From Psychrobacter glacincola (GTDB lineage Bacteria; Pseudomonadota; Gammaproteobacteria; Pseudomonadales; Moraxellaceae), in NCBI RefSeq assembly GCF_904846215.1, contig NZ_CAJGZK010000005.1, positions 62,001-126,000 on the forward strand: DNA of 64,000 nt. Direction: 5' to 3'. Both the position numbers and the translations under genes were made by a program. The notes below the pieces were generated by a model that saw only the letters and a list, made by a program, of their open reading frames with translations, searched no databases and was not told the origin of the DNA. Positions 7,375 to 32,145 of the stretch are shown piece by piece. The stretch's first letter is position 1, and every line of letters starts with the position of its first letter.

Positions 7375-8198
7375 CATAGTCACTGTACTACAAAAGAGTT
7401 ATGCTTTGGATGAATATCATAAAACAATTTAGATAAATCATTTTCCATCTAATCTTGGCGTTGAAACTTCACTTGAGATCATTTCTTCTCGATGGGATTT
7501 AGATCAGGGCTGTAGGGTGGTAGCCATAAAATACGATGGCCATGTCTAGTCAGTAGTTTTTGAATACGCCTATTTTTATGAAAAGCTTGTCACTCGATCA
7601 CAGCTCTCGTCTTGCGCTCGGGCAAAGCAGTGCTTTGCTTTATCTTCGCTCATATCCATCACAATCACACATTTTTTTAAGCTTTGGTATCAGTATGAAC
7701 TTGCACCAACTATAGAAAACCGCATTATTGATGTTTGTTTTTAAGCAATGGAGTGCAAAAAGCGTTTTGCCATAGAGCACATTAATGACATTGGTTCGAT
7801 CTTTAGCTTGCCAATTATAACTGTCAATACAGGGGCTACCAATGGGGGGGATAACCATAACGGCGTATCGTCTCACTAATAAAGCCACTCTCATCCATGT
7901 ATACAATAGCAAAGCCATGAGTAATGTATTCGTTAAGTTTGCTTAGATACTTAGCTCTTTTTACTGGGCCAGCTTTTAGATGCTACAAGTTGTTTTTTTG
8001 ACTGATACCAATACGCTCTTTCCACTTCTGAATAGTTGTGGACCGATGTCATAGAAAGTAGCAGCTTCAGTAAAGGTCATATCCTCATTTAAGCTTTTAA
8101 GAGCTTGTTTGCGATAGTCTAGGGAATAAGTCATCGTTATTTATAGTAATAATTGGTTAGTTGATTTATCTCATAACATTGAAGTCAGGTGACTACAT
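7375..8198 (-). mobile_element. Degenerate IS630-family insertion sequence
   Basis: A dead element of ~820 bp, shorter than the usual ~1.1 kb. The terminal repeats are imperfect: the left end reads ATAGTCACTGTACTAC and the complement of the right end reads GTAGTCACCTGACTTC; both then share GTTATG. The element carries a broken transposase on the minus strand. No clean TA duplication is visible, consistent with age. Confidence 0.75.
7380..8134 (-). pseudogene. IS630-family transposase, frameshifted and internally deleted
   Basis: The reading starts at 8134 with MTYSLDYRKQALKSLNED and a helix-turn-helix-like MTFTEAATFYDIG. It degenerates near 7980, where the rest of the N-terminal domain is missing. 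It resumes with YMDESGFISETIRRYGY, shifts frame at a C7 tract near 7846, and continues as IGSPCIDSYNWQAKDRTNV and on to FYSWCKFILIPKL. After further shifts the conserved LPPYSPDLNPIEKK end with the DDE glutamate is readable, then MENDLSKLFYDI, stopping inside the left terminal repeat. These landmarks are typical of IS630 DDE transposases. It cannot make a functional protein. Confidence 0.85.
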
Positions 8199-8426
8199 AT
8201 TAAATACAGCACTTGAAAAATAGAATATAAAAAACTTCTAAAATTTATGGTGCGAATCAATAACTTTGATTAAAAATGAACTGTAGTCCTTTAATCCGCA
8301 ATCAATTATGGTACTATGGCTTTATTTTATATAATCAATAGAATATTACCTAAAGTATAGCTAGCAACCTTCTTTAATATGAGCTACTGTCATTTACTAT
8401 ACTATGGTTTATAAGGGTCTATCATA

Positions 8427-9186
8427 ATGCGTCAACCGTCTAAGCTAGTAGGTGCAACAAGCTTAATACTCATTAGTTTGCTATCCGGCTGTGCAACTAC
8501 TACTATAAACTCTGGTCTTCAAGCTGGCGAGTTGCCCAATGCAGGTAGTTTTACTGCTGAAAATGGTCTCCAATTCAATGTTCAACCATTGAGCTTGGCC
8601 ACATTGCCTCCTAAGAACTTAGTTCGATCTAACAGTGATTTGTCTCGCAGTGACCTGTCTCGTTTAATAAGAGCTTCCAACCCAATAGATTATCGCATCG
8701 CTAAAGGCGATATTCTAAGCATTATTTTGGTTGGTTACCCTGACATGTCAGCTGCTGGTGCTAGCGGTTATCCTGTTGATCAACAGGGCTTTGTGCAGTA
8801 TCCATTGATAGGGCGTATTAAAGCTAGCGGTGTAAGCGTGCCGCAGTTTACTGCAAACTTACGTGCACAGCTGCAACGGTATCTCAAATACTCAGATCCA
8901 CAAGTAAAAGTTGTTGACTATCGTGGCAACAAATTCTTTATTGATGGTGAGGTCAGCAAATCTGGTGAATTTGCTATAACAGATGCACCTGTTTCTCTAT
9001 ATACTGCGATTTCTATGGCAGGCGGCGCAACAGCTACAGGCGATTCAAATAATATCATATTGAATAGGAACGGTACGACTTATAACGTAGGGCTTCAGTC
9101 ATTACGCGAGATGAACTCATCCGCCAATAAAATATATCTTCAGGATGGCGACTCAATTCATGTCAATAGCCAAGACATCAATAAAG
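8427..9186 (+). pseudogene. wza: Polysaccharide export outer-membrane lipoprotein (Wza type), 3' end lost to IS1
   Basis: The intact part has a lipoprotein signal with lipobox LLSGC (Cys22). Next comes a polysaccharide-export domain (YRIAKGDILSIILVGYPD near 91, then PVDQQGFVQYPLIGRIKASG) and a soluble-ligand-binding-like domain (FFIDGEVSKSGEFAITD near 171). Wza forms the outer-membrane channel for capsular or exopolysaccharide. Homologues run about 360-380 residues; here sequence stops near residue 253 and the frame reads ~15 codons into the insertion sequence to a stop at 9233. The 3' end and the expected wzb/wzc partners do not reappear beyond the element, so this is probably the stump of a lost capsule locus. 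Confidence 0.85.
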
Positions 9187-9950
9187 GGTGGTGTTCTAAA
9201 AAGTATGCTGGCATTAGACATAGCCATAATTGACGTAAAAGAATACCATATCAAACACTTTGAAGTGATTATCGAGCTTCTTAGAGAAACAACAGGTTTT
9301 TCTAACCGCCCGACGCAATCGGTGTCTAAGGCGGCAATTATTACCTTCTATGCCTACCGTATGCTGCTTACCAATTTGTTTGTGATCACCTTTAAAGGCC
9401 GTTATAAAGCTGTCCCAGTTGTCCATGCTAATAGAGTCATAACTGACTTTAAGCTGCTTAAGACGGGCTCTTAACTTCTTAGCCGTTTTTAAGTCACGCC
9501 TGCCCCAGACATAAGCGACAATCTCATTGGTAGCACGGTCATAAGCATAGATGAGCCAGACTTTACGTTTCTTGCGATACACGTAAGTCCAAAACTCATC
9601 AACCTCTAAACGTTCATAGTAGCTCTTTTTAGGCGCAATCTTATACACGGATGAGCCTATGGTGCTCAATACTTTACCAATACTGATAGACATGACAACA
9701 GCAATGTCTCTGATGCCACAACCTCTAACCGTCATCAGCCGTATCTTATCTTCTATTCTAGAGTGACAGCCTTGGTAGGTTAAGGCATGGTCACCTATGA
9801 ATTGACGTTTGCAGTCCTTACATTGGTAGTTCTGCTTACCATAGCTTTTTATGCCGTTTTTCTTTAAACTGGAACTGTGACAGTCGGGGCAACTGATATC
9901 TATTTGTGTCTTCATAACCTCAAATATATCATCTTGCTTTGGCTGTCACC
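9187..9950 (-). mobile_element. IS1-family insertion sequence with intact single-frame transposase
   Basis: The element spans 764 bp, close to canonical IS1 size, with both ends starting GGTG and only weakly matching terminal repeats. No 8-9 bp target duplication is visible: the left flank is ATCAATAAAG and the right flank is CTCCTTTAT. That absence suggests a deletion or recombination adjacent to the element. Confidence 0.8.
9214..9915 (-). CDS. IS1-family transposase (single ORF)
   Basis: 233 residues in one continuous frame, unlike classical IS1 where InsA and InsB are joined by frameshifting. The N-terminus has a zinc-finger-like pattern (Cys9, Cys12, Cys33, Cys36) followed by a helix-turn-helix region (GCGIRDIAVVMSISIGKV). 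The catalytic domain shows EVDEFWTYV (Asp107), SISMDNWDSF (Asp166) and TVGIEGNN (Glu191), consistent with a DDE active site. No stop or frameshift is seen, so it may still be active. Confidence 0.93.
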   Translation of the reverse strand: MKTQIDISCPDCHSSSLKKNGIKSYGKQNYQCKDCKRQFIGDHALTYQGCHSRIEDKIRLMTVRGCGIRDIAVVMSISIGKVLSTIGSSVYKIAPKKSYYERLEVDEFWTYVYRKKRKVWLIYAYDRATNEIVAYVWGRRDLKTAKKLRARLKQLKVSYDSISMDNWDSFITAFKGDHKQIGKQHTVGIEGNNCRLRHRLRRAVRKTCCFSKKLDNHFKVFDMVFFYVNYGYV

Positions 9951-9995
9951 CTCCTTTATTTCCTCAGCATACTTTCTGATACACCACCAAAAATT

Positions 9996-10925
9996 TTAAC
10001 GAGCATCTCTTTTCGCAAAAATATTGGCAACCAATGCACCACTAAAGTTATGCCATACACTAAAGATCGCACTAGGCAAGGCAGCGACAGGATTAAAATA
10101 AGTCGCGGCAAGGGCAGCACCAAGACCAGAGTTTTGCATACCCACTTCGATCATAATGGCACGGCGTTGTTTCTCAGAGAAGCCGGACAAGCGAGCGATT
10201 AAATATCCAAAGGTATAACCCAGCATATTGTGTAAAGCCACGACGATAAATACGATAGCACCACTTTCTAAAATAGTGGCTTTAGAAACCGCAACGACGG
10301 CAGCTATGATGATTGAAATGCCCAATACCGAAATCATCGGCAATATCTCGACAGCAAATTCTATTTTCTTACCCAAAAATTTGTGGAAAATAACCCCTAA
10401 TAATATCGGTAAAATGACGATTTTAGTGATGGTCAGCATCATACTGGCTAAATCAATATCAATCAGTTGACCGGCAAACATATTTAATAGAATAGGGGTC
10501 AAAAAAGGCGCAAGTAGCGTAGATATAGAAGTAATGGCGACACTTAGCGCCACGTCGCCTTTGGCTAAGAATGTAATCACATTACTAGACGTGCCACCGG
10601 GACAACAGCCAACCAAGATAACGCCAACAGCAATTAGAGGATCAAGGTTAAAGATGACGGTTAGCAAGTAAGCAATCAAAGGCATCAGAGTAAATTGCGC
10701 CAGCAATCCTATCAATACAGGCTTTGGTCGCTTAATGATTTCTACGAAATCTTCCGTCTTCAAAGTCATGCCCATGCCAAACATGATGATACCCAATATA
10801 GGCACAATCAAAAACGCCAACGAGGAAAAGAATGCAGGAAAAATAAATCCTAAGACGGCACTGACCAATGCCCAAATTGCAAACGTTTTGCCAATCCAAC
10901 TGGACAGTAGAGCAATTTGTTTCAT
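9996..10925 (-). CDS. Bile acid:sodium symporter (BASS) family transporter
   Basis: From the ATG at 10925 (MKQIALLSSWIG) the protein has ~309 residues and 9-10 predicted membrane helices. The frame extends four codons further to a TTG, but GAGAAAGATT directly before the ATG favours 10925. BASS marks are GCCPGGTSSNVITFLAKGD and EVGMQNSGLGAALA. The family imports organic anions such as bile acids, pyruvate or pantoate/ketopantoate with sodium; which one applies here is not visible. The stop lies 46 bp from the IS1 end, so this gene may mark the far side of a deletion. Confidence 0.9.
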   Translation of the reverse strand: MKQIALLSSWIGKTFAIWALVSAVLGFIFPAFFSSLAFLIVPILGIIMFGMGMTLKTEDFVEIIKRPKPVLIGLLAQFTLMPLIAYLLTVIFNLDPLIAVGVILVGCCPGGTSSNVITFLAKGDVALSVAITSISTLLAPFLTPILLNMFAGQLIDIDLASMMLTITKIVILPILLGVIFHKFLGKKIEFAVEILPMISVLGISIIIAAVVAVSKATILESGAIVFIVVALHNMLGYTFGYLIARLSGFSEKQRRAIMIEVGMQNSGLGAALAATYFNPVAALPSAIFSVWHNFSGALVANIFAKRDAR

Positions 10926-10947
10926 AATCTTTCTCAAAATAGTGAAC

Positions 10948-11085
10948 TATAGTTAAAATATCTCAAAAACGCTACAGTGCTGCTGATATAAATTTTTTGC
11001 AGCCTCTGTCTGCGTAGGCACAGCAAGCAAGAAAAATTAATATCAGCAGTACTTGATGTATCGATATTACTTTTCCCTGACTATA
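10948..11085 (+). repeat. MITE-like palindromic repeat, copy 4
   Basis: A very clean copy running from TATAGTTAAAATATC to CCCTGACTATA. The inner arms are GCTGCTGATAT(A)AATTTTT and AAAAATTAATATCAGCAG. It differs from copy 11 at only about four positions. It occupies the region just upstream of the BASS gene and so may carry or disrupt its promoter. Confidence 0.9.
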
Positions 11086-11183
11086 GATAATAATCTAGCA
11101 TGGTTACAGTCAGGAAATGATAAAAGTATTTTGTTATCAAGGTAGCGATAAGTTTGCAGACGTGAAGCAGGCTATTACTCTAT

Positions 11184-11218
11184 AAAAAATGGCTTACTTA
11201 TATTAAATAAGTAAGCCC
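11184..11218 (-). terminator. metH terminator
   Basis: GGCTTACTTAT pairs with ATAAGTAAGCC around a short AT loop. Read on the minus strand it is followed by a run of T. It lies ~45 bp beyond the metH stop. Confidence 0.8.
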
Positions 11219-11260
11219 AACATAATTATCAGATGTCTATGAGTTAACTCAACTTTATTC

Positions 11261-14200
11261 CTACAAATTCGGATTCAACCACTTCTCAGCAGTCTTCATA
11301 TCCCAGCCTTTACGCTCAGCATAACTCTCTAACTGATCGCTGCTGATTTTACCGACGTTAAAGTACTCACTATCAGGATGTGAGTAGTAAAATCCGCTTA
11401 CCGATGATGCAGGCCACATCGCATAGCTTTCAGTCAATGTCGTACCGATAGCCTCAACCGTACCAAGCCAGTCAAACAGTTTGCCTTTTTCGGTATGTTC
11501 AGGGCAGGCAGGATAGCCAGGTGCAGGGCGGATACCGACGTATTTTTCTTTAATCATCTCATCATTGGTTAAGCTCTCATCAGCCTGATAGCCCCAATAA
11601 TCCTTACGAATCAGCTCATGCAAATGCTCAGCAAACGCTTCGGCTAGGCGATCAGATAATGCTTGTACCATGATGGCATTATAGTCGTCACCAGCCGCTT
11701 TATACTTCTCAGCAAGCGCCTCTGTTCCAACTATCGATACAGTAAAGCCGCCCAGATAATCCGTATGCGTATCCGATGGTGCGATAAAATCTGCCAAGCT
11801 AAAGTTTGGCTTACCGCTGGCTTTGTCGCTTTGTTGGCGCAAATGCTCAAATTGATATGTTGCTATGCCGCCCTCAATCGGCGCTTTGTCATAGACAGTG
11901 ACGGTATCCGCGCCCGTACGACGTGCTGGCATGAGTTTAAAGACGCCTTTAGCGACGATTAATTTCTCATCAATCATCTTTTGCATCAAGTCATTAGCAT
12001 TATCGAACAAATCACGCGCCGCTTCGCCAACCACATCATCTTGCAAGATTTTTGGATATTTACCCGCCAGTCCCCAAGAGATAAAGAATGGCGTCCAGTC
12101 GATATAAGGCAGCAGGTTAGTGATGGGATAATCGTCAAATATCACTTGTCCTAATTTGTTAGGCGTCGGTGGCACATAGTTTTCCCAATCATACTGGAAG
12201 CCAATCTCGATTGATTCCACATAAGATATTTTGGCAGCTTTCGGTTGACGCTTGGCCAGACGTTCCCGCACCTTGATATACTCTTCGCGCGTCTCTTCGA
12301 TTAATTGCGTACGGTTCTCTTTAGAGAGCAGCTTGGTCACCACGCCGACAGAGCGTGAGGCATCCGCCACATAGATGACGCCATTGTTTTGGTATTGTGG
12401 TTCGACTTTGACAGCCGTATGCGCTTTCGACGTTGTTGCACCGCCGATCATTAAGGGCAGCGTCATGCCGCGTTCTTGCATTTGCTTGGCGACATAGACC
12501 ATCTCATCAAGGCTTGGCGTAATCAGACCTGATAGCCCGATGATATCGACTTCTTCAGCAATGGCGGTATCAAGGATTTTTTCACAAGGTACCATCACGC
12601 CCAAATCGACGATGTCATAGCCATTACAGCCGAGTACGACGCCGACGATATTTTTACCGATATCATGGACGTCACCTTTGACCGTTGCCATGAGGATTTT
12701 ACCTTTCTTTTCACCCTCGACTTTTTCTGCTTCGATATACGGGTTCAGCCAAGCGACCGATTGTTTCATGACGCGCGCTGATTTGACTACTTGCGGTAAG
12801 AACATTTTACCAGCACCAAACAAGTCGCCAACGATATTCATACCGTCCATGAGCGGTCCTTCGATGACCTCAAGCGGGCGCGGATATTTCTCCCACGCTT
12901 CTTTGGTATCTGCTTCGATAAAGGTGGTGATACCTTTAACGAGTGCATGGGCAATCCGTTCTTCAACCGTGCCTTCACGCCAGCTCATATCGACGGTGCT
13001 GTCTTTTTTCTTACCGCCGTCTTGATAGTTTTCAGCGATGGTCATGAGCCGTTCGGTGGCATCTTGACCGGTCTCGCCTTGATTGCGGTTGAGCATCACA
13101 TCTTCGATGGCCTCGCGTGCTTCCTTTGGAATATCATCATATAGCTCAAGCATAGCTGGGTTGACGATACCCATCGTTAAGCCGTTTTGAATCGCATGAT
13201 AAAGGAATACAGAGTTGATGGCTTCACGAATTGGGTTGCCACGGAAACTAAACGACACGTTAGAAACACCGCCCGATACCATAGCATTTGGCAGGTTTTC
13301 CGTAATCCATTTGGTGGCGTTAATAAAGTCCGCACCGTAGTTATTGTGTTCGGTAATACCAGTGGCGACTGCAAAAATGTTCGGGTCAAAGATAATATCT
13401 TCAGAGGGGAAGCCTACTTCATCGACCAAGACGTCATAGCTGCGTTTACAGATTTGAGTCTTACGCTCAAAGGTATCCGCCTGTCCATCTTCATCGAATG
13501 CCATAACAATAATGGCAGCACCGTAGCGCATACATAACTTGGCACGCTCAACGAACTCAGCGTGGCCTTCTTTTAATGAGATAGAGTTAACGACACATTT
13601 ACCTTGAGTGCGCTTCAAACCTTCTTCGATAATGTCCCATTTTGATGAATCTAGCATTAGCGGCACACGGCTGATATCAGGCTCGCCAGACACGAGGTTA
13701 ACGAAGTGAATCATCGCCTGTTTGGAGTCAAGCATCCCTTCGTCCATGTTGATGTCGACGATTTGCGCGCCGCCTTCAACTTGGTCACGGGCGACATCAA
13801 GCGCCTCAAGATAGGCTTCAGTTTTGATTAGGCGTAAGAATTTTTTTGAACCGGTAACGTTGGTGCGCTCACCGACGTTGACGAATAGACTGTCTTTATT
13901 GATGGTAAATGGTTCAAGACCAGATAAGCGGCAGGCAGGTGGAATTTCAGGAATGACACGCGGTGGGTACTTTGCCACCATATTAGCGATTTGACGAATA
14001 TGCTCAGGTGTGGTACCACAACAGCCGCCGACGATGTTTAGAATGCCTGCTTTGGCAAATCCTTCTAACAGTGCTGTGGTTTCCTCAGCCGTTTCATCGT
14101 ATTCCCCAAATTCATTGGGTAGACCAGCGTTTGGATGCGCTGATACATAAGTATTAGATATGTTTGAAAGCGTTTGAATATGCGGGCGTAGCGCATCAGC

Positions 14201-15094
14201 ACCGAGCGCACAGTTAAAGCCAACGGATAGTGGTTTGGCATGGCGAATCGAGTTATAAAACGCTTCCGCCGTTTGACCCGATAATGTCCGACCTGACGCA
14301 TCGGTAATCGTCCCTGAAATCATAATTGGCAATTCAAATCCGATATCATCAAAGACGCCAGTGACGGCAAAAATTGCCGCCTTAGCATTGAGCGTATCAA
14401 AAATAGTCTCAATCAAAATGATATCAACGCCGCCTTCCATTAATGCTAACGTCGCCTCGCGATAGTTCAGCACCAATTCATCAAAGGTAATATTACGAAA
14501 GGCGGGGTCATTAACGTCAGGCGATAGCGAGCAAGTACGCGATGTCGGACCAATGACGCCAGCGACAAAGCGTGGTTTTGCTGGATTTTTTGCCGTGTAT
14601 TCGTCAGCAGCTTCGCGGGCAATCTTAGCAGCCGTTTTATTCAGCTCAGGCACCAGATACTGCATATCATAGTCTGCCATCGACAGCCGCGTACCATTAA
14701 AGCTATTGGTCTCGATAATATCAGCGCCGGATTCCAAATGCGCCAAATGAATCTCTTTAATCATATTCGGCTGCGTGAGAACCAACAAATCATTATTGCC
14801 ACGCACATCTTGCTTGATATCAGCAAAGCGTTCACCACGATAGTCCGCTTCCTCTAACTTATAATTCTGAATATGCGTGCCCATCGCACCATCGAGCATC
14901 AAAATCCGTACTGCCATTTGCTCCGTGATACGTGCACGTGCGGTTAGCTGCTGATCCTTATAAGGAAACACAGCAGGCGGCGTCAGTATAAAGTCATTAG
15001 GATTGGCATTTGGATTGCTGGTGTCAGTTAGATTGCTGGTGTCAGTTAGATTGGTTGAAGAGGTATCAGTTTGAGAACGGGCTGTTGGGGTCAT
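11261..15094 (-). CDS. metH: Cobalamin-dependent methionine synthase MetH
   Basis: A 1277-residue cytosolic enzyme that methylates homocysteine from 5-methyltetrahydrofolate via methylcobalamin. All four modules are present. The homocysteine domain has zinc ligands in GFNCALG (Cys295) and GGCCGT (Cys358, Cys359). The folate domain starts near [16 protein letters not shown] (~405). The cobalamin domain has DVHDIGKN at 808-815 with axial His810. The C-terminal AdoMet-reactivation domain contains [12 protein letters not shown] (~1190). The N-terminus has ~45 extra polar residues with a tandem NLTDTS repeat encoded by a duplicated 18-bp unit; the ATG at 15094 could be replaced by a later start. 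No cobalamin riboswitch was recognised upstream. Confidence 0.97.
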
Positions 15095-15647
15095 AGGAGC
15101 GCTGCTTATAGAGTCAATGTTATAAAAAAGAAGAGGAAAAAGTCGTTATAATTTTTAATAGAGAAGACGTCAAAACCATCAATACCAGTAAAAAATAGTA
15201 AATAAATACAGATGATTTTAGCAGAAAATATATTGCCAATGTCAGGTTATCAAAGTCTATTGCATAAAGCGTGTAGGCACAAATGAATATCATTTAACTT
15301 TAGGGTTGCAGAAAGCTTTACTTATGATTATAAACGTAAAAGTATCGCTTTATAATGCAAATACAGATTACATGCACACCACAAAAAGTAGCGTAAATAG
15401 ACGTTTACAGATATTAACTATATGTTAATTTAATTTCAGAAGGATTGATGTTTCATAAGCGGTGCTTATTAGTAAGGGTTGATGGTCTTATTTGCAGTTT
15501 TCCCTATAAGGTATTTTTATGGGTAAATATGCACCATCAAATCAGTAATTAGTACGTTAAGCATTGCTACTAAGGAAAGACAATCTCATCTGTCAGACCG
15601 TATAAAAACCAACAGAATATAGATATTTACTCATTAAGGACAATGTT
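15095..15647. other. Intergenic region, divergent metH / fasciclin gene
   Basis: 553 bp of AT-rich DNA holding the start regions of both divergent genes. I see no repeat copy, RNA gene, riboswitch or convincing coding frame. The only local structure is a weak GTAAA...TTTAC inverted repeat near 15390-15408. Confidence 0.6.
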
Positions 15648-16202
15648 ATGAAAATCATCAAAATCGCCGCTATCGGTACGTTAGCTGTTTCAATGGCAGG
15701 TTTAAGTGCTTGTAATAATATAATGCCAGCCAAAAGCGCTCCTATGAAAGCGCCCATGCATAGCCAATCAATGGCAAAAATGAATGTGGTACAAATTGCC
15801 CAAAGCAATCCTGATTTCTCTGTACTCGTAGAAGCTGTCGTCGCCGCTGATTTGGCGGGTGCGCTCTCTAATCCTAATGCCAACTATACGATTCTTGCGC
15901 CAACCAATGCAGCATTCATGCAAGCGTTACAAGAAAATAACATGACCAAAGCGCAGCTTTTTGCCAATAAGCCACTATTGACCAAAATCTTAAGCTATCA
16001 CGTGATTAATGCCGCAGCACCTATATATGCCAAGGATGTCAGACCAGGTAATGTGACCATGTTAAGCACAGACACGCTTATGGTGACAGCCCAAGGTAAA
16101 TTGATGGATGAAAGTGGACGTACAGCAAATCTCTTAAAAACCGATATTACTGCCAGTAATGGCGTGATACATGTGATTGATAGAGTTCTGATGCCTAGAT
16201 AA
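15648..16202 (+). CDS. Fasciclin-domain lipoprotein 1
   Basis: 184 residues. The signal peptide ends at lipobox LSAC (Cys22), followed by a Met/Pro/Ala linker. One fasciclin (FAS1) domain runs from ~45: IAQSNPDFSVLVEAV, YTILAPTNAAFM near 81, LLTKILSYHVI near 108, and the closing ASNGVIHVIDRVLMP. FAS1 domains mediate adhesion or surface association; the protein should be membrane-anchored on the periplasmic side or outer membrane. The ATG follows TTAAGGACAATGTT. It is a tandem paralogue of the gene at 16527, with a decayed third copy between them. Confidence 0.9.
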   Translation: MKIIKIAAIGTLAVSMAGLSACNNIMPAKSAPMKAPMHSQSMAKMNVVQIAQSNPDFSVLVEAVVAADLAGALSNPNANYTILAPTNAAFMQALQENNMTKAQLFANKPLLTKILSYHVINAAAPIYAKDVRPGNVTMLSTDTLMVTAQGKLMDESGRTANLLKTDITASNGVIHVIDRVLMPR

Positions 16203-16251
16203 TTTATGGTAAGGTTTTATAAACTAGCCATTATATGAGTATGAGGTCAAT

Positions 16252-16282
16252 CGTTAAGAGCTGCTCTAAGCAGCTCTTAAAC
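16252..16282 (+). terminator. Hairpin after fasciclin gene 1 (no T-run)
   Basis: TTAAGAGCTGC pairs perfectly with GCAGCTCTTAA around a 5-nt loop, 50 bp past the stop. The following bases are not T-rich, so termination efficiency is uncertain. Confidence 0.45.
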
Positions 16283-16313
16283 GCGTTATAGAGTTAGATA
16301 ACGAAACGCCTGT

Positions 16314-16350
16314 GTTATATACGTGATTGATACAGTGCCACTACCTAAGA
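16314..16350 (+). pseudogene. 3' stub of a third fasciclin-domain gene
   Basis: This reads VIYVIDTVPLPK followed by frame decay. It closely mirrors the last residues of both neighbours (GVIHVIDRVLMP and GVVHVIDTVLMP). No upstream coding remains, so this is likely the tail of a deleted tandem copy. Confidence 0.65.
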
Positions 16351-17286: not shown

Positions 17287-17424
17287 TATAGTCAATGAAA
17301 AGTAATATCGACACATTAGTTACTGCTGGTATCAATTTTTCCTGCTTGCTTTGCCCATGCAGACAGAAGCTGCAAAAAATTTTTACCCGCAGTACCGTAG
17401 CGTTTTTAGGGTATTTTGACTATA
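17287..17424 (-). repeat. MITE-like palindromic repeat, copy 5
   Basis: It starts TATAGTCAATGAAAAG and ends TTGACTATA. The reverse core has drifted (TTCCTGCTTGCTTTGCCC, then ACAGAAGCTGC). The inner arms TACTGCTGGTATCAATTTT and AAAATTTTTACCCGCAGTA still pair partly. Confidence 0.85.
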
Positions 17425-19966: not shown

Positions 19967-20110
19967 TATAGTTGATTCACTTTTAAAAGAGTACAGCATA
20001 ACTTGAGTTAATTATTCGCAGCCTCTGTCGGCTAGCTACAGCAAGCAAGAAAAATTAACCTCAGTAGTGATTGATAATATTTGTATTTCTTTTATTTAGG
20101 ACTGGCTATA
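19967..20110 (+). repeat. MITE-like palindromic repeat, copy 6
   Basis: It runs from TATAGTTGATTC to GGACTGGCTATA, with the core GCAGCCTCTGTCGGCTAGC then ACAGCAAGCAAG. It belongs to the same subgroup as copies 2 and 3. It lies ~95 bp before lemA. Confidence 0.88.
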
Positions 20111-23767: not shown

Positions 23768-23794
23768 TGGTTTGCCTATTATAGTACGTCCATT

Positions 23795-24595
23795 TTATAG
23801 TACGCCCATTCTTTTGACCAACTCTGGCAGGATGACACCCGCTTTTGCTGCTAGAGTAATATTGACTAGCGTATTTGGCGTTGGATAGGGATTTATCTCT
23901 ATAATTTTGGCACCGTTATGTTTTGCCAATTGCGCCAGTCCGGCAGCAGGATAGACTAGGCTGGAAGTTCCGATACTGATAAACACGTCACAATCAGCCG
24001 CTGCCTCTTCGGCTGTCTGCCATGACTGCACCGGTAACGACTCTCCAAACCACACGATATCTGGTCTGATATAACCATCACAATGCTGACAAATAATCAG
24101 GGCTTCATCAAAATTGATGCTATCTTCGCTGTCATAACTTCCATTTGATTGGCTTTGATAAGGTGTGTCACATCGGCTACATTTATTACGCCACAGGTTG
24201 CCATGTAAGTGGGTAACAACGCTGCCTGCTTGCTCGTGCAAATCATCGACGTTTTGAGTAATGAGGGTCAATTGATGATGGGTCGATCGACTGTGGTACT
24301 GCCACTGTGCTAATGCTATATGTGCAGGGTTTGGTTTTTTGCTTGCAACCTGTTGTCTGCGCCATTGATACCACGACCAAACCAGCTTTGGGTCGCGAGC
24401 AAAGGCATCTGGTGTCGCTAAGTCTTCAGCGCTATAATTCTCCCACAAGCCAGTTTGCTTATCGCGAAAAGTTGGTATGCCACTTTCTGCTGAAATCCCT
24501 GCACCCGTTAAAATACAAATACGCTGTTTTGTTGCCAGTAGTTTGGCAGCACGCTCTACTTCTGCTATTAACCCTGATGGTAATTCTGCTAACAT
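23795..24595 (-). CDS. cobB: Sir2-family NAD-dependent protein deacylase
   Basis: 266 residues. Rossmann-fold NAD motif GAGISAESGIPTFRD lies at 31-45, TQNVDDLHEQAG near 114, and catalytic HGN with His132. A zinc-binding pair follows (Cys140, Cys143), with the second pair in IICQHCDG. The YQWR sequence at 76-79 supplies the Tyr-x-x-Arg pattern that lets class III (SIRT5-like) sirtuins accept succinyl or malonyl lysines, so it is likely a desuccinylase as well as a deacetylase. It is cytosolic. It stands alone on the minus strand, convergent with adenine deaminase. Confidence 0.92.
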   Translation of the reverse strand: MLAELPSGLIAEVERAAKLLATKQRICILTGAGISAESGIPTFRDKQTGLWENYSAEDLATPDAFARDPKLVWSWYQWRRQQVASKKPNPAHIALAQWQYHSRSTHHQLTLITQNVDDLHEQAGSVVTHLHGNLWRNKCSRCDTPYQSQSNGSYDSEDSINFDEALIICQHCDGYIRPDIVWFGESLPVQSWQTAEEAAADCDVFISIGTSSLVYPAAGLAQLAKHNGAKIIEINPYPTPNTLVNITLAAKAGVILPELVKRMGVL

Positions 24596-24630
24596 AAGCT
24601 AACCCTTGCTAATAATGGATATCCCTTCTT

Positions 24631-24990
24631 ATGATAGACGGAATTTGGTGGCTTGTCATATTGATAGCATTTATCATTGGATTATGGTTGTTTGCAAAAA
24701 CACGTGCGCCAAAACCGACTGCTCTGCATGACACAAAGCACAAAAGCAAACCAATGAATGATGCGCTGCAAAAAACAGCAAAGATGATTAAGCGATATTT
24801 TCCTGATTATGGCGTTACACGAAAGGGCAATCATCTGCTTGTCAGTCGACAAAATATTAAAGTCGCTATGATTACGATTGACCCCAAGCTTGCTGCCAGT
24901 CAACGCCGTTTAGGGGATATACCAGTGATTAATTATCACCGCGTGCCTAGTCGTGCGCAATTGGATGCCAATTTACAAGAAGCAGAATAA
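24631..24990 (+). CDS. Small hypothetical membrane-anchored protein
   Basis: 119 residues of no family I recognise. Residues 4-22 are a Trp/Ile/Leu-rich helix (IWWLVILIAFIIGLWLFA), followed by a Lys/Pro linker and a compact C-terminal part with AKMIKRYFPDYGVTRKGNHLLVSRQNIKVAMITID near 50-88. The protein is likely tethered to the inner membrane with a cytoplasmic basic domain. It is divergent from the sirtuin gene (35 bp apart), with CCCTTCTT before the ATG and no strong ribosome-binding site. Codon use resembles its neighbours, so it is probably real. Confidence 0.7.
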   Translation: MIDGIWWLVILIAFIIGLWLFAKTRAPKPTALHDTKHKSKPMNDALQKTAKMIKRYFPDYGVTRKGNHLLVSRQNIKVAMITIDPKLAASQRRLGDIPVINYHRVPSRAQLDANLQEAE

Positions 24991-25086
24991 ACGCTGACTA
25001 TATAGGATTGAGTAACAGCAGAAGCCATTTATTGATATTGATAACACAGAGAGTGTAAGGAAGAAGGGGTGGGATAATACGATGAT

Positions 25087-25163
25087 TGGTGCGCTCGGCG
25101 GGAATCGAACCCACGACCCTCGGCTTCGGAGACCGATACTCTATCCAACTGAGCTACGAGCGC
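25087..25163 (-). tRNA. tRNA-Arg(CCG)
   Basis: The complement folds as a complete cloverleaf. Acceptor GCGCTCG pairs with CGAGCGC. The D-arm is GCTC...GAG, the anticodon stem TCGGT/GCCGA carries the loop CTCCGAA (anticodon CCG, Arg CGG codon), and the T-arm contains GGTTCGATTCC. Discriminator A and CCA are encoded. Total length is 77 nt. Confidence 0.95.
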
Positions 25164-25376
25164 AAAAGTGTCTAAAAATAAAGACCGCTTAGTCTAACAA
25201 ATAAAAGTCATAAAGCCAATGAATGAAGCCAGCTATTGAAGTTTTTTAAGAAAAAACAGCATAGTCCGCAAACAGGCATGGCAATCTACCCGTCTTTTCC
25301 CTTATAATGTCAGGGAGAATCCCTATTTATAATCACCGATTACAAGTGCGCTCGCATGCGGGATGGCTGTTTGCTA

Positions 25377-25397
25377 TTGACAATGGTTCGTTGTCAA
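25377..25397. other. Small inverted repeat upstream of the cytochrome c gene
   Basis: TTGACAA pairs with TTGTCAA around a 7-nt loop. It lies ~65 bp before the start, downstream of a TATAAT at 25303-25308, so it would fall in the mRNA leader. Its role is unknown. The rest of the 24991-25461 gap holds only the tRNA. Confidence 0.35.
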
Positions 25398-25461
25398 AGA
25401 AGGACAGACAGAATGTCTAAGTCGTGCTGACCCTTGTATACGTAATAAGAGAACGTGACGA

Positions 25462-26139
25462 ATGAGAAAAGTAGTTATGTTATCGGCAGCTGCCATTCTA
25501 GGAATCGCTAGTATCGCTGTGAGCCAAGCTGAAAGCGCTGTAGATACGCCTGTCACTATATCTGCTGTTGCAGAAGGCAAAGACGTTGTCGAAAATGCCC
25601 CTCAAAAGCTGGGTGATGAGCCTCAAGCGGCTGCAGATACCACCGATGGCGCTGCTTCTGCTGATGCAACTGCGGGAGCAGACGTGGTAGCAACAGATGC
25701 ACCAGCCGAGGCAACTGCGGCAGCCGCACCAGCTGCTGTCGAAGAGCCAGTGCCAAAAGATACACCGCAAGTACAGAAACTGATTGCGTTATATCCGAAT
25801 CTAATTGCTCGTATTCAGCCAGTTGGTCAAGTGTGTTTTGAAGAAGGTGAGATTTGTGATGTGACCGCCCGATCGTCTGGCCCGTCAGCCGGTGATGGCC
25901 CTCGTGATGGTAAAGCGGTTTATAGCGCAGTATGTCAAACTTGTCATGCAACAGGCTTGCTAGGCTCACCTAAGTTGGGTGATGCGGGTGCTTGGGGACC
26001 TCGTATAGCAAAAGGTAAAGATACCTTGTACACCCATGCTATTAATGGTTTCAATGCTATGCCTGCCAAAGGTGGCGCTGATATCCCTGATGAAGAAGTG
26101 CAAAATGCGGTTGATTATATGGTTGGTGAAGCCAGTTAA
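25462..26139 (+). CDS. Class I c-type cytochrome (cytochrome c5 family)
   Basis: 225 residues. The signal peptide ends around SQAES (~24). A long Ala/Asp/Glu/Thr-rich, probably disordered linker runs to ~98, followed by the heme domain. There, CQTCH near residue 157 binds heme covalently and NAMPAKGG near 195 supplies the axial methionine. The KAVYSAVCQTCHATGLLGSPKLGD context is typical of cytochrome c5-like proteins, which carry electrons in the periplasm to terminal oxidases or other acceptors. The linker may let the heme domain reach partners from the membrane if the signal is uncleaved. The ATG follows AAGAGAACGTGACG. Confidence 0.92.
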   Translation: MRKVVMLSAAAILGIASIAVSQAESAVDTPVTISAVAEGKDVVENAPQKLGDEPQAAADTTDGAASADATAGADVVATDAPAEATAAAAPAAVEEPVPKDTPQVQKLIALYPNLIARIQPVGQVCFEEGEICDVTARSSGPSAGDGPRDGKAVYSAVCQTCHATGLLGSPKLGDAGAWGPRIAKGKDTLYTHAINGFNAMPAKGGADIPDEEVQNAVDYMVGEAS

Positions 26140-26210
26140 TGTAAGTGGTCGCCTTAAGTAGCAACGTTTAGTTTAGAATTTTATATCGTGGTTTTAAACA
26201 TAATTCTATG

Positions 26211-26244
26211 ACTAAGAGCTTATAACTAAGAGCTTATAACTAAG
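26211..26244. repeat. 14-bp tandem repeat (2.4 copies)
   Basis: The unit ACTAAGAGCTTATA is repeated exactly twice and followed by ACTAAG. It lies in the gap after the cytochrome gene, just before its terminator. Confidence 0.85.
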
Positions 26245-26255
26245 TCAGGGCTAGC

Positions 26256-26296
26256 AAAACGCCTATTCCATTGAATGGAGTAGGTGTTTTTTTGCG
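26256..26296 (+). terminator. Terminator of the cytochrome c gene
   Basis: AACGCCTATTCCATT pairs with AATGGAGTAGGTGTT with a few mismatches and is followed by a T-run of seven. Confidence 0.85.
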
Positions 26297-26445
26297 TTTG
26301 ATGATTCATGGTCAATGATGAGTCGTACTCATATCATGCTTATTATACGTCGCAGTTGAAATCTATCATAGGTAGCCTCACATTAAGGGTTACATAATTT
26401 ATTATAGTATTTATTCCATAAAACCAAATCTACAAAGAGGTATTC

Positions 26446-27408
26446 ATGTCTGAAGTACCAGCACTTTCGATCAAGAATTTATCCAAAACCTATGGCAACG
26501 GGTTTTCGGCGTTAAAAGACGTCAGTCTTACGGTTCCGCAAGGGGGGTTTTTTGCGTTACTGGGACCAAATGGTGCCGGTAAGTCAACGATGATTGGTAT
26601 TATCAGCTCGTTGTTTCAACCGACCAATGGTAGTGTGCATATTTTTGGTGTTGATCTATTGGCCAATCCTTCGGTGGCCAAACAGTACTTAGGTGTGGTG
26701 CCGCAAGAGTTTAACTTCAACATGTTTGAAAAAGTAGAAGATATTCTGATAACCCAAGCAGGTTATTTTGGTATTTCTGCCAAAGAGGCTAAGCCACGTG
26801 CCGAGCGTTTACTCAAAGCATTAGGTCTATGGGATAAACGAGACAGCAAATCGCGAGAGCTATCTGGCGGTATGAAACGCCGCCTGATGATTGCTCGCGC
26901 GTTGATCCACAAGCCCAAGCTGCTAATCCTTGATGAGCCCACGGCTGGGGTTGATATTGAGCTGCGCCGTTCGATGTGGGAGTTTATGCAGCAAATTAAT
27001 ATCGAAGAAAATACCACTATTATTCTTACTACTCATTATCTAGAAGAAGCTGAGCAGCTATGTAAGCGCATTGCTATTTTGGATCATGGTGAAATTCGTA
27101 TTAATACTGAAATGAAAGACTTGCTGGCGCAGTTGTCCGTTGAGACCTTTGTGTTAGATTTGACCCAGCCGCTTACCCAGCCTTTGGTCATTGATAAGGT
27201 AACAGAGATTGTCCAGCCTGATCAGCTGACCGTGGAAGTGACTTTGAGTGAAGGTGAGACTCTCAACTGTGTCTTTGAGCAGCTCACCAAGCTTGATATC
27301 GAGGTGTCCAGCATGCGTAATAAGTCTAACCGCTTAGAGGAGCTGTTTATGCGGCTAGTAGACAAAAACATTCAGAATGAAGACAGTATGAAGGAGGCAG
27401 GGTTATGA
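26446..27408 (+). CDS. yadG: ABC-2 type exporter ATP-binding protein (YadG)
   Basis: 320 residues. Walker A GPNGAGKST lies near residue 39, the Q-loop in VVPQEFNFNMFE near 85, signature LSGGMKRRLMIARAL near 138, Walker B KLLILDEPTAGVDIELRR near 157, and the switch His in TTHYLEEAEQL near 190. A ~100-residue C-terminal extension follows. The run from PQEFNFN to GVDIELRRSMW is strongly YadG-like. The substrate of YadGH is not established. It overlaps the permease by four bases (ATGA), so the two are translationally coupled. The ATG follows AAAGAGG. Confidence 0.95.
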   Translation: MSEVPALSIKNLSKTYGNGFSALKDVSLTVPQGGFFALLGPNGAGKSTMIGIISSLFQPTNGSVHIFGVDLLANPSVAKQYLGVVPQEFNFNMFEKVEDILITQAGYFGISAKEAKPRAERLLKALGLWDKRDSKSRELSGGMKRRLMIARALIHKPKLLILDEPTAGVDIELRRSMWEFMQQINIEENTTIILTTHYLEEAEQLCKRIAILDHGEIRINTEMKDLLAQLSVETFVLDLTQPLTQPLVIDKVTEIVQPDQLTVEVTLSEGETLNCVFEQLTKLDIEVSSMRNKSNRLEELFMRLVDKNIQNEDSMKEAGL

Positions 27409-28214
27409 AACAGCCAATAACGATAGACCCTAATGAGACTATGTCTTGGGCCAAAATGTGGATTGCTTTTCAGACGATTTTAGTCAAAGAGATTCGTCGA
27501 ATTCTTCGTATTTGGCCACAAACCCTGTTGCCACCGGTCATTACCATGGCTTTATACTTTGTCATCTTTGGTAAGATGATTGGCTCACGGGTGGGGGAGA
27601 TGGGCGGCGTACCGTACATGCAGTTTATCGTCCCTGGACTCATCATGATGGCAGTGATTACCAATAGTTATTCTAACGTGGTATCGAGCTTTTTTAGTGC
27701 CAAATTTACCGCCAGCATTGAAGAGCTGTTAGTATCTCCAGTCTCTAAGCACGCCATCTTAATGGGTTACATCGGCGGCGGTATTTTTCGCGGTCTGATT
27801 ATTGCTCTTATTGTCTCTATTGTGGCGCTATTCTTTACGCATCTGGGCATTGAGCATCTATTTGTCACTGTATTTACGGTACTTGGAACGTCTATTCTGT
27901 TCTCGCTTGGCGGCTTTATCAATGCAGCTTATGCCCGCTCATTCGATGACATTACTATCATTCCAAGCTTCGTACTAACACCGTTGACCTTTCTTGGCGG
28001 GGTGTTTTATTCGATGGAGAACTTATCTACATTTTGGTACAACGTCTCACTACTGAATCCTATCGTCTATATGGTCAATGCCTTCCGTTACGGTATTCTT
28101 GGTTATTCTGATGTCAACGTTTGGTATTCGATGGCGGCTATTTTTGTATTTTGTGTGGTGTTCTATGTTATCTCTTATCGTTTATTGAGCGATGGTTCGC
28201 GTATTCGGTTGTAG
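27405..28214 (+). CDS. yadH: ABC-2 type exporter permease (YadH)
   Basis: 269 residues with six membrane helices typical of ABC-2 permeases. An amphipathic N-terminal segment (ILVKEIRRILRIWPQTLLPPVITMALYFVIFGKMIG) precedes YMQFIVPGLIMMAVI. SSFFSAKFTASIEELLVSPVS near 100 is the conserved coupling loop, and LTPLTFLGGVFYSMENL near 200 is typical of the YadH/NodJ-like group. It pairs with the overlapping ATPase gene to form an inner-membrane exporter of unknown substrate. Confidence 0.95.
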   Translation: MKQPITIDPNETMSWAKMWIAFQTILVKEIRRILRIWPQTLLPPVITMALYFVIFGKMIGSRVGEMGGVPYMQFIVPGLIMMAVITNSYSNVVSSFFSAKFTASIEELLVSPVSKHAILMGYIGGGIFRGLIIALIVSIVALFFTHLGIEHLFVTVFTVLGTSILFSLGGFINAAYARSFDDITIIPSFVLTPLTFLGGVFYSMENLSTFWYNVSLLNPIVYMVNAFRYGILGYSDVNVWYSMAAIFVFCVVFYVISYRLLSDGSRIRL

Positions 28215-28267
28215 TTAACTATTAACCTTAATGAAAAACTAGCATCATTAACGTTGATAATAAATCC

Positions 28268-28293
28268 CCACTGACGATCACCACTGACGATCA
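28268..28293. repeat. 13-bp direct tandem repeat upstream of queF
   Basis: CCACTGACGATCA occurs twice in immediate succession, ~45 bp before the queF start. It may be a replication-slippage duplication in the promoter or leader. The 7-deazaguanine (preQ1) aptamer was not recognised here. Confidence 0.85.
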
Positions 28294-28336
28294 ATAGTGA
28301 TTAATAATAAAAATTAGGTATTATTAGGAAGTATGA

Positions 28337-29221
28337 ATGAGTATTCACGGTATCTTGGGTGAGCAAACCACCGATTATCCAACTGAGTATAGTCCAGAGA
28401 CGTTATATCCTATCGCTCGTAGTATAGGGCGTGATGCTATAGGCTGGCAAGCCGCTAAATTAACGGTTGGCGTCGATTGGTGGCAGGCATTCGAGATGTC
28501 TTGGCTTAACCAGCAAGGTATCTCGCAAGTCGCCATCGCGCGCTTTGGTATTCCTGCCGCCTCACCATTTATCGTTGAGTCAAAATCGCTCAAGTTGTAT
28601 TTAAACAGTATCAACTTTACAGAGTTTGGCAGTTGGGCAGAAGTGCAAATACTGATTGCCAAAGATTTATCTAAATGCGTACAGTCAGAAGTACAAGTTG
28701 AATTGTTTGGCTTAGATGACGACTTGCATGATGAGATATCAGGGTTGTTGATTGCTCAACCTGAGGGTATCTGTATTGATGATGCGCTAGCAGGTAGCAC
28801 GGATAAAGTTGGGCTGACTATGCATCCTGAGGCGTCGCTGCTAAGTAGTAATGACGCAGAATCCAGCGCTGTTAAAGCAAACGATAGCGACAGTCGGTCA
28901 TATAACTTTTATTCTAACTTGCTGCGTAGTAATTGTCCGGTCACCAATCAGCCAGATTGGGGGACATTGGCAGTTTCGATAACCAGTAATAAGCCAGTTA
29001 ATAACGCAAATATGCTGCGTTATATCTTAAGCTTTCGTCAGCATAATGGCTTTCATGAGCAATGTGTGGAGCAAATATTTGCTGATTTAAGTCAATATTA
29101 TCAGCCAAGTACGCTCATAGTACGTGCTTGGTATACACGCCGCGGCGGTATTGATATCAATCCTTGCCGCGTGAGTGATATGAGCTTGTTGCCTAAGCCA
29201 AGTCGTTTGATTCGTCAGTAA
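28337..29221 (+). CDS. queF: NADPH-dependent 7-cyano-7-deazaguanine reductase (long form QueF)
   Basis: 294 residues of the two-domain (type II) QueF. QueF reduces preQ0 to preQ1 for queuosine in tRNA. Visible motifs are ESKSLKLYLNSINFTEFGSW (substrate-binding Glu and QueF signature, ~86-105), catalytic Cys in NLLRSNCPVTNQPDWG near 200, LSFRQHNGFHEQCVEQIF near 235 and YTRRGGIDINPCR near 270. A Ser/Asp-rich insert near 170-190 separates the two halves. The ATG follows AGGAAGTATGA. Confidence 0.95.
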   Translation: MSIHGILGEQTTDYPTEYSPETLYPIARSIGRDAIGWQAAKLTVGVDWWQAFEMSWLNQQGISQVAIARFGIPAASPFIVESKSLKLYLNSINFTEFGSWAEVQILIAKDLSKCVQSEVQVELFGLDDDLHDEISGLLIAQPEGICIDDALAGSTDKVGLTMHPEASLLSSNDAESSAVKANDSDSRSYNFYSNLLRSNCPVTNQPDWGTLAVSITSNKPVNNANMLRYILSFRQHNGFHEQCVEQIFADLSQYYQPSTLIVRAWYTRRGGIDINPCRVSDMSLLPKPSRLIRQ

Positions 29222-29305
29222 ATTAATGTTGGTTATTAGCTATCATAAATTGCCATTAGCTCATATACTTAGCAAACATTATTTTGCTTACATTAGGGTG
29301 TAACT

Positions 29306-29695
29306 ATGAAGGTAGTAACTGGTTTTTTTACTGTGATAAGTATAGCAGCATTGTCAATGACGGCAGCACAAGCTGCTTTTGTGGAAAATAAATATAACTG
29401 TGAAATGTCAATGGAAGAAGCTGTTGACTGTGGTGAAAGTGCGGTTAAAGTAGAGAAAAAGCGCCTTAACAAAATATATATGAGCGCACATCGTACGCTA
29501 TCTGCTAAGCAAAAATCACAGTTAGATAAAGAGCAAGCCGCATGGTTAAAAAATCGCAATAAACAGTGCGAGTTTAAGCAAGAAGGATCAATGAATAACA
29601 TGGCAGTATGGGGTATGATTAGTGCTGATGTTTGCACCGCTACTGAGAATCAAAAGCGTAGTAAAGTACTTGCTAAAAAGTATCATATTAAATAG
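29306..29695 (+). CDS. Lysozyme inhibitor LprI-like secreted protein (DUF1311)
   Basis: 129 residues. The signal peptide ends at AQA (~23). The mature domain has Cys32, Cys43, Cys89 and Cys111 for two likely disulfides and the DUF1311 pattern L-x4-LSAKQKSQLDKEQAAWLKNRNKQCEF (~66-92). LprI-type proteins are periplasmic or secreted and some inhibit lysozyme; activity here is inferred from the family. It starts after TTAGGGTGTAACT and ends before a strong bidirectional terminator. Confidence 0.88.
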   Translation: MKVVTGFFTVISIAALSMTAAQAAFVENKYNCEMSMEEAVDCGESAVKVEKKRLNKIYMSAHRTLSAKQKSQLDKEQAAWLKNRNKQCEFKQEGSMNNMAVWGMISADVCTATENQKRSKVLAKKYHIK

Positions 29696-29710
29696 TTTAT
29701 TTTAGCTAAT

Positions 29711-29754
29711 AAAAAAGGCGCCTATCTCACTCGATGAGATAGGCGCCTTTTATG
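29711..29754. terminator. Bidirectional terminator between lprI-like gene and proS
   Basis: AAAAAAGGCGCCTATCTCA pairs with TGAGATAGGCGCCTTTT around CTCGA. This is a long near-perfect stem with an A-run on one side and a T-run on the other, and it serves both convergent genes. Confidence 0.93.
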
Positions 29755-29774
29755 GTTCAGATTTTATCTTTGGA

Positions 29775-31493
29775 CTATTTGCCGCTTATTTTAGCCAATA
29801 CGTCATCATGGCTAAGCAATTGCTTTTCGCTATCACGGCGATTGACGTACTCGTACTTATCTTCTGCCAAGTTGCGATCAGAGACCACGATACGATGCGG
29901 AATACCAATCAGCTCAAGGTCAGCGAACTTCACGCCTGGGCGCTCATTACGGTCATCAAGCAATACATTGATACCAAGGGCTTTTAGCTCATCATACAAT
30001 GCGATAGCAGTTTGCATGACCGTATCTTCTTTTGATTTCATTGGCACGATAGCGACTTCAAACGGGGCAAGAGAATCGCTAACATTTGGCGTTTTTGGCC
30101 ACATGATGCCATTGTCATCGTTGTTCTGCTCAATAGCAGCAGCAATGATACGGCTGACGCCAATACCATAGCAACCCATCATGAGGGTGACCGGTTTGCC
30201 ATCTTCACCTGAAACGGTGCAATTCATCGCTTGTGAGTACTTATCACCCAACTGGAAGATATGACCGACTTCGATACCACGTTTGATTTGTAGCGTACCT
30301 TTACCATCAGGAGAAGGATCGCCTTCATGGACATTACGAATATCGACAATCTGAGTGATGTGCGCGTCGCGCTCCCAATTCATACCAGTCGTGTGTTTGC
30401 TAGTTTCATTGGCACCAGAGACAAAGTCTGACAGCGCTGCTGCGGCACGATCGACAAAGATAGGCATATCAAGCTCAACGCCGATATAGCCTTTATGCAG
30501 ACCAGCCGCTTTTAATTCTTCTTCAGTTGCCATCGTCAAAGGGACATTGGCGGCATCAATTTTTTCAGCTTTAATAGTATTTAAGGTATGGTCGCCGCGT
30601 AATACCACAGCGATAAGCTGCGGTTCACCTTCAGCAGTATGACCTTGTACAATCAAGGTTTTAACAGTGGTCGCAAGTTCAATGTTTAAGTGCTCAGCAA
30701 CGGCTTCACAGGTTGGCATATTGACGGTATCGACATTCTCGCGCGGCATCGTCGCAGGCTGGCGTTCTGTAGTACTCACAGACTCGGCAAGCTCGACATT
30801 GGCGGCATATTCAGACGAATCAGAAAAAGCAATATCATCTTCGCCGCTGTCTGCTAGGACATGAAACTCGTGCGAGGCAAAACCACCGATTGAGCCGGTG
30901 TCGGCTTGTACGGCACGGAAATCAAGACCCAAACGAGTAAAGATGCGTGTATAAGCGTCAAACATCTCGTCGTAGGTTTTAGCCAATGACGCTTGGTCAA
31001 CATGGAACGAATACGCATCTTTCATCGTAAATTCGCGCGCGCGCATCACCCCAAAGCGTGGACGAATCTCATCACGGAACTTATTTTGAATTTGAAAGAA
31101 CGTAATCGGTAGTTGTTTATAACTGCGCAGCTCGCCTTGGGCAAGATTGGTGATCACCTCTTCGTGCGTCGGTCCTAATACAAAATCGCGGTCATGACGA
31201 TCTTTAAAACGTAACAGCTCAGGACCATAGTCGTTAAAACGTCCGGTCAGCTGCCAAAGCTCAGCAGGCTGGGTCATCGGCATAAGCACTTCTTGAGCGC
31301 CGATATTTTGCATCTCTTCGCGAACGATACGCTCGACTTTTTGCAACACGCGCAAACCCATTGGCAACCAGATGTATAGTCCAGAAGCAATTTTGCGAAT
31401 CAGACCGGCTCTAACCATTAATTGGCTCGAGGCTATATCCGCATCATTAGGCGTTTCTTTTAGCGTGGCAAATAAAAATTGACTGGCTTTCAT
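29775..31493 (-). CDS. proS: Prolyl-tRNA synthetase (bacterial type with editing domain)
   Basis: 572 residues, the full length for the bacterial ProS form. It charges tRNA-Pro in the cytosol. The class II motifs are visible: motif 2 in [26 protein letters not shown] near 140, and motif 3 in [17 protein letters not shown] near 445. The insertion of ~180 residues between them ([19 protein letters not shown] onward) is the YbaK-like domain that clears mischarged Ala-tRNA. The anticodon-binding domain follows [11 protein letters not shown] near 473. The sequence starts [15 protein letters not shown] as in typical bacterial enzymes. Confidence 0.97.
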
Positions 31494-32006
31494 AAATAAA
31501 GCGGAACCTTATCAACGATAAAATAAATAAGAAATAGTAGGATGTTGAGCGTGTGGTTTGATGGCCGACGCAAGATGACCTTTTATTACTTGGTAATAGT
31601 GTAGGATATGCTCTAGCTAGAAAGTACTGCAACAGACAGTAAGCAGTGCGTTCGTAAACAGCATCTTAAAAAGGATATAACATATTATTTTGTATAAAAA
31701 TACCAATCTTTACCAAGCAGTTTTTCAAGCATAAAGCCCAAATAACGCCTGTATACCGATATTTTAAGTATACAACCTGACTATGTTAGGTAAAGTTTGC
31801 CTAAGACGCAATGAATTTTTGTTTTTTCAGAGCGAAGGTTACTTAAAGGGTTAAATTAGACAGCTATAACTCGATTATTTATCATTTTTGAGTGTTATTT
31901 ATGGCAAATAAAAAGGTGTTTTTTGAAGATGCCATCATGAGTGATTATGTAGAGTATTGGTAGTCATTACTTGAAGTTACTGCTTAAAAATAGCATTTAG
32001 CATTTG
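31494..32006. other. Intergenic region upstream of proS
   Basis: About 500 bp of AT-rich DNA with the proS promoter region at its left end. I see no RNA gene or credible coding frame. A 20-codon frame (MANKKVFFEDAIMSD...) near 31901 has no good ribosome-binding site and was not called. Confidence 0.5.
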
Positions 32007-32145
32007 TATAGTGAGTTTACTACAAAAGTGTTATAGCGCTATTGGTATGAATTTTACGCAGCCTCTGGGAACGCAGCACGCCAGTAAAATTTATACCAAT
32101 AGCGCGTCTAAATTTTCATAACATTTTTATTTTCATCTGACTATA
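32007..32145 (+). repeat. MITE-like palindromic repeat, copy 7 (most divergent)
   Basis: It runs from TATAGTGAGTTTACTAC to TCATCTGACTATA with long perfect inner arms: GCGCTATTGGTAT / ATACCAATAGCGC. The central core has lost the usual AAGCAAG block. Its left end is the one most like the IS630 remnant at 7375. Confidence 0.85.

Follow-up and report, generated by a model that had tools for sequence, protein, structure and literature searches.

Miniature repeats of Psychrobacter glacincola carry IS630-type ends of two kinds and are probably moved by matching IS630 transposases

We analyzed a 64,000-nt stretch of DNA from Psychrobacter glacincola (contig NZ_CAJGZK010000005.1 of assembly GCF_904846215.1, which comprises 117 contigs), hereafter termed the window. 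It contains the remnant of an IS630-type insertion sequence (IS) at 7375–8197 and 11 miniature inverted-repeat transposable elements (MITEs) in four families, A–D. MITE-D is represented by copy 7 at 32007–32145 on the plus strand; this copy is 139 bp long, has the form TATAG...CTATA, and both of its ends are of the type that we term TGTTAT. An earlier note on this DNA had linked the left end of the remnant to that of copy 7, and had proposed an IS630-type transposase as parent and mover of the repeats.

The remnant carries a broken transposase gene on the minus strand. Its PF13358 (DDE_3) match scored 43.7 bits and contains five TGA codons (C5:69452-69676). The left end reads CATAGT (TATAGT in relatives), and the right end, TGTAG, is eroded. 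Over 755 aligned columns the remnant was 81% identical to L001, an element of Psychrobacter sp. KFRI-CH2-11 found by plasmid search. The sequence of the surviving left end, together with the relatives L001 and L179, places the remnant in the TGTTAT end type. An empty-site comparison at its insertion site was uninformative, the flanks being too diverged in relatives.

Window positions 7376–7405 and 32008–32037 were identical at 23 of 30 positions when counted by eye and at 23 of the first 29 by computation, which confirms the agreement of about 23/30 reported previously. As background we used 1386 distinct 30-mers starting with TATAG, drawn from the window and the fetched loci after the four MITE families and the IS630 elements had been masked. 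The top score among these against the remnant left end was 19/30. When the copy 7 end was shuffled with TATAGT held fixed, 22/29 was reached once in 100000 shuffles, and the maximum was 23. The match includes an uninterrupted TACTACAAAA block, and it held at 23/30 when the MITE-D left-end consensus, built from 20 copies, was used. The A, B and C consensus ends scored 14–19 against the remnant left end and the MITE-D right end scored 19; the close match to the remnant thus belongs to one end of the copy 7 family. A box AAAAG(A)GT had also been said to be shared by other copies. The AAAAGAGT box is present in family A, yet the family A ends fit other IS630 elements better.

The MITE consensuses were 138–148 bp long, and their flank columns mostly showed 30–60% agreement, indicating short, multi-copy, dispersed repeats with unrelated flanks. 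Copy alignments, from which copies shorter than 85% of the query or clipped by a locus end were excluded, stopped sharply at TATAG...CTATA. Both TATAG and CTATA were found in 16/20 copies of D, 40/45 of B, 25/39 of A and 4/8 of C. MITE-D had 16 other copies in the same genome at 95–99% identity, one of them partial. For MITE-B, 39 other copies at 97–99% were found among 40 scored of 428 first-look candidates; for MITE-A, identity was 85–95% among 40 scored of 414 candidates. Judged by these identities, MITE-D is evidently a young family and family A an older one. A search with Rfam at gathering threshold across the window revealed two transfer RNAs and nothing else.

Empty-site comparisons were made with flanks from other species. 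Copy 7 was absent in 6/6 aligned relatives; the junction read TA in 5/6, with a two-base gap alongside. The family A copy at 6012–6156 (minus strand) was absent from the orthologous site in five relatives. At locus L063, the TATA that terminates a family A copy contains one D copy, and at L097 an IS630 element of another type, X, adjoins a copy of family C in similar fashion. These alignments make TA the likely target.

The IS630 sample consisted of the best 80 of 332 relatives in a genome-collection scan, corresponding to 79 loci, all titled Psychrobacter. TATAG was present at both ends in 65 of the 79 loci and at one end at least in all of them. An interior tree was built from 68 distinct IS630 sequences and the remnant, with 60 alignment columns trimmed per end and elements without two readable ends excluded. 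With L090/L091 as outgroup, it separated 32 TGTTAT-end elements and the remnant from 34 others; on the TGTTAT side, the remnant clustered with L001 and L179. The 34 include L154, whose left end was misread, and both the end-type supports and the orfA and orfB trees were computed without it. The two sides then had supports of 0.856 and 0.761. The orfA part alone, of which the remnant retains too little to be placed, yielded the same split (supports 0.907 and 0.767).

Besides the remnant, the P. glacincola genome holds the IS630 elements L094, L093, L095 and L096 and the X-type elements L090/L091. In L094 (C2:60949-61868) both frames are open, the ends are of the TGTTAT type, and the IS630 domains are present (DDE_3 catalytic domain PF13358, 113.9 bits; helix-turn-helix domain PF01710, 60 bits; NF033545, 110.2 bits at a cut-off of 100). 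It was the only TGTTAT-end element among the eight longest DDE_3 matches in the assembly. A run of 8–9 A followed by G was observed at the orfA/orfB overlap in all 12 IS630 elements inspected (L094, L090, L093, L096 and others), a pattern that fits programmed frameshifting; the run in the remnant is 7 A.

Alignment of MITE consensus ends to intact IS630 ends gave 26/30 for the MITE-D left end (with L126) and 27/30 for the right end (with L094 and L120), where the background maximum over all IS630 ends was 25. None of the 1386 background sites reached the scores of the D left, D right, A right or C right ends. The A left end was weak singly, at a level that 7/1386 background sites reach. Scored as end pairs with MITE-D, L116 reached 38, L094 35, L001 34 and the X type 13–17; L116, L128, L120 and others formed a group at 36–38. 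Random site pairs (400) scored 20 or less for MITE-D, and none reached the observed score of any of the four families, so that the pairs of A and of B also exceeded all 400. Mean scores, grouped by tree clade, were higher for TGTTAT elements than for the rest at both MITE-D ends (left, 21.5 vs. 18.6; right, 22.6 vs. 19.0); for the A and B ends the means were reversed, favoring non-TGTTAT elements. Per-copy end types were counted by a string rule, which misplaces one L121 end. By this rule, 15 of 20 MITE-D copies had TGTTAT at both ends, one was a tie and four lacked clear ends; the other end type was found at both ends in 36/45 copies of B and 21/39 of A.

From these sequence comparisons we consider it highly probable that the MITEs are non-autonomous IS630-type repeats and that MITE-D is served by TGTTAT-end IS630 elements and families A and B by GATACA-type elements. 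An IS630 transposase produced from another locus would bind the ~30-bp MITE ends, which take the form TATAGT...AAAAxTGTTAT in MITE-D and TATAGT...AAAAxxGATACA or GTACA in A and B. It would then excise the MITE and reinsert it at TA, with duplication of the TA. MITE-D would be moved by elements of the remnant's end type, for which L094 is the candidate in the same genome, and A and B by elements with GATACA-type ends; C carries one end of each type. The MITE cores, which form a hairpin around GCAGCCTCTG, would have an origin other than the tested IS elements. Extension of the copy 7 match to all repeats is therefore tenable at the level of IS630, but not at that of end type: A and B have the other type and C is mixed.

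Several observations count against this interpretation. At the family A site 6012–6156, none of the five relatives without the MITE had TA in register (TT, CT, TT, CT, CA). Family C is split, its left end being of the GATACA type and its right end closest to L094 (27). Each MITE-B end matched at only 22/30, which 7/1386 background sites equalled. The orfB tree lacked a clean split and contained three end-type changes (orfA, one), and the orfB of L094 was 87% identical to that of L093, which has the other end type, vs. 75% to that of L001. Across 60 genomes, an L094-like transposase did not track D-like copy number: strong hits (E<1e-80) occurred in 13/21 genomes with at least 14 D-query matches vs. 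21/39 others. This co-occurrence test, which lends the pairing no support, is weak, as D counts mostly saturate at 14 and both the transposase and D searches also catch other families or end types.

Because the orfA tree splits cleanly and the tree of orfB, the catalytic part, does not, end type appears to travel with the DNA-binding orfA half of the element. Recognition of the ends by orfA would lead to such a pattern. The difference between the two trees also suggests that the IS630 elements are mosaic.

The remnant's own lineage, the L001/L179 group, may have moved the copy 7 family, the element having since died here; we regard this as a possibility, though an unlikely one. It would account for the 23/30 match at one end with its unbroken TACTACAAAA block and for the clustering of the remnant with L001 and L179 on the TGTTAT side, and the pair score of L001 (34) is near that of L094 (35). 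However, L116, L128, L120 and others outscore L001, the best single-end matches are those of L126 and of L094 and L120, and the right end of the remnant has lost its match (15/30 with the copy 7 right end). The remnant itself, with its five TGA codons, inserted repeat and eroded right end, is a poor parent. An intact counterpart of the same end type, L094, is present at another place in the genome. The earlier proposal thus stands insofar as the MITE ends are of IS630 type and the copy 7 family matches the remnant's type; to call the remnant or its exact lineage the parent is an overstatement. The remnant is evidently a cousin of the likely mover.

Selection for the hairpin, with the IS630 ends left over from an earlier spread, is an improbable reason for the persistence of the repeats. 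All four families have GCAGCCTCTG within the hairpin; the central stem pairs are kept (12/12) in all four consensuses, any two families differ at 3–6 pairs in which both bases have changed, and the predicted folds were −38 to −53 kcal/mol (calculated without a shuffled control). Such conservation is what retention of the hairpin would produce; however, palindromes are also maintainable by one arm copying the other, and D and B copies that are 95–99% identical with unrelated flanks point to recent movement. Still less probable is an origin of the MITEs by internal deletion of an IS630 element. This is the usual origin of MITEs, and the ends are shared; however, the best local scores of the A–D cores against nine IS630 elements were 15, 12, 13 and 12, no better than those of shuffled cores (medians 12, 11, 11 and 11; maxima 18, 14, 19 and 16), and we rejected it. 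That the ends resemble each other by chance, or by convergence of AT-rich palindromes with TATAG, is very improbable, since, although TATAG sites are common and the A left end and both B ends are at the level of 7/1386 background sites, no background site reached the D, A right or C right scores and no random pair reached that of any family.

Movement in trans by elements of matching end type is thus the interpretation that we favor. Many near-identical MITEs occur in one genome together with an IS630 element that has the matching end type and seems intact and with others of the rival type, and in-trans mobility should be directly testable in it, as should the question of whether end sequence decides the choice of transposase. 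The tracking of end type by orfA rather than orfB supplies a concrete prediction for such tests.

D-like MITEs in other genomes (L215–L217, L220, L222–L226 and others) shared the core with our MITE-D and differed in the outer left end. In 18 of 29 such loci the alignment to MITE-D began at position 18 or later, with 75–90% identity beyond. MITE ends may change faster than cores, through replacement or adaptation to another transposase.

The closest known system is RUP of Streptococcus pneumoniae. Two papers describe ~110 RUP copies with ends similar to those of the host IS630-Spn1 and a TA target, and present movement in trans as proposed rather than demonstrated (PMC2229807, PMC3049150). The first, a 2007 review, states that MITE movement by transposases was then without experimental support (PMC2229807), and the second, a 2011 study, found RUP not clearly more mobile than other repeats (PMC3049150). 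Like RUP, the Psychrobacter MITEs are short repeats with host IS630-like ends, and their target is likely to be TA as well; they differ in having four families with related cores and ends of two IS630 types. By this analogy, in which RUP is likened by description only, the Psychrobacter MITEs belong to the RUP/IS630-Spn1 kind already known. The Correia/NEMIS repeats of Neisseria are ~107 and 155 bp long, with TA at the ends, terminal repeats and stem-loop transcripts (PMC2229807). Their likeness to the Psychrobacter MITEs is again one of description. The ends of Correia/NEMIS may also resemble the TATAG ends of the MITEs. Elements of the IS630/Tc1/mariner group, such as ISY100, share a helix-turn-helix and DDE transposase with the Psychrobacter elements, of which the 12 inspected differ in the A run before G at the orfA/orfB overlap. 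For ISY100, transposase is reported to be sufficient by itself in vitro (PMC2170065). By title or the start of the abstract, no paper on these Psychrobacter MITEs or IS630 elements was found in a literature search that mostly did not extend to subscription journals.

A different repeat interrupts the remnant. This 62–66-bp hairpin repeat lies at 7591–7652 (plus strand), inserted in the transposase gene beside the codons for VIVMD, which includes the second catalytic Asp. A total of 47 copies were located in 42 loci (including L097 1438–1503, L002 1619–1684 and L300–L336). IS630 transposase genes harbored 22 of the 47, in every case in antisense orientation to the gene. The loci were collected from the top match downward with a copy from a transposase gene as query, which biases the share inside transposases upward. 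The IS630-borne copies occupied three spots in several IS630 lineages: seven lay between DLNP and IE, at the catalytic Glu, nine directly after VIVMD and two just past MDNxxFH. Three more had only the downstream half recognizable at the MD spot, and one was shortened. Among the other 25 copies, 15 were in IS256- or IS3-type genes, placed before DNALAE or DNAPTE in the IS3 type and at PRDRxGxFEP or between SE and GA in the IS256 type, and 10 were elsewhere. These types were assigned by Pfam (Transposase_mut, rve, HTH_21, HTH_Tnp_1) for eight loci, from record annotation for L300, L301, L303 and L302 (the last as a DDE-type integrase), and by likeness to L305 for L023.

By-eye comparison of three pairs indicated that ~4–7 bases are replaced by the hairpin insertion. 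A tree based on 250 bases, limited to carriers that had at least 120 readable bases and the repeat at one of the three full sites, showed 17 carriers scattered among 12 repeat-free elements. Matches to the repeat were found in 89/100 genomes of the genus; plasmid records with a match numbered 30, of which 27 were from Moraxella. Titles and abstract openings, within a coverage that mostly omits subscription journals, included no report of repeats in transposase catalytic motifs. We tentatively suggest, as a possibility, that the hairpin repeat prefers particular sites and inactivates transposases by substituting a few bases at conserved codons, most of them catalytic. The main alternative is that a few insertions were spread by gene conversion between IS copies and survived only in dispensable genes.

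The P. glacincola genome has several X-type IS630 copies (L090, L091, L092, L097 and L098), which resemble one another and measure ~890 bp. L092 is split by other open reading frames (ORFs), presumably IS3-like, L097 is split by the hairpin repeat, and L098 lies at a contig start.

The remaining MITEs of the window are distributed as follows. Family A copies lie at 4546–4690, 19967–20110 and 40927–41077 (all plus strand; left end of the last, TATCG). Family B copies lie at 10948–11085 (plus), 17287–17424 (minus), 33016–33166 (minus, with a short internal duplication) and 50012–50149 (plus), and family C copies at 749–894 (minus) and 43289–43433 (plus, left end degraded). The copies at 6012, 10948, 33016–33166, 40927 and 43289–43433 are within ~30 bp of an end of a long ORF.

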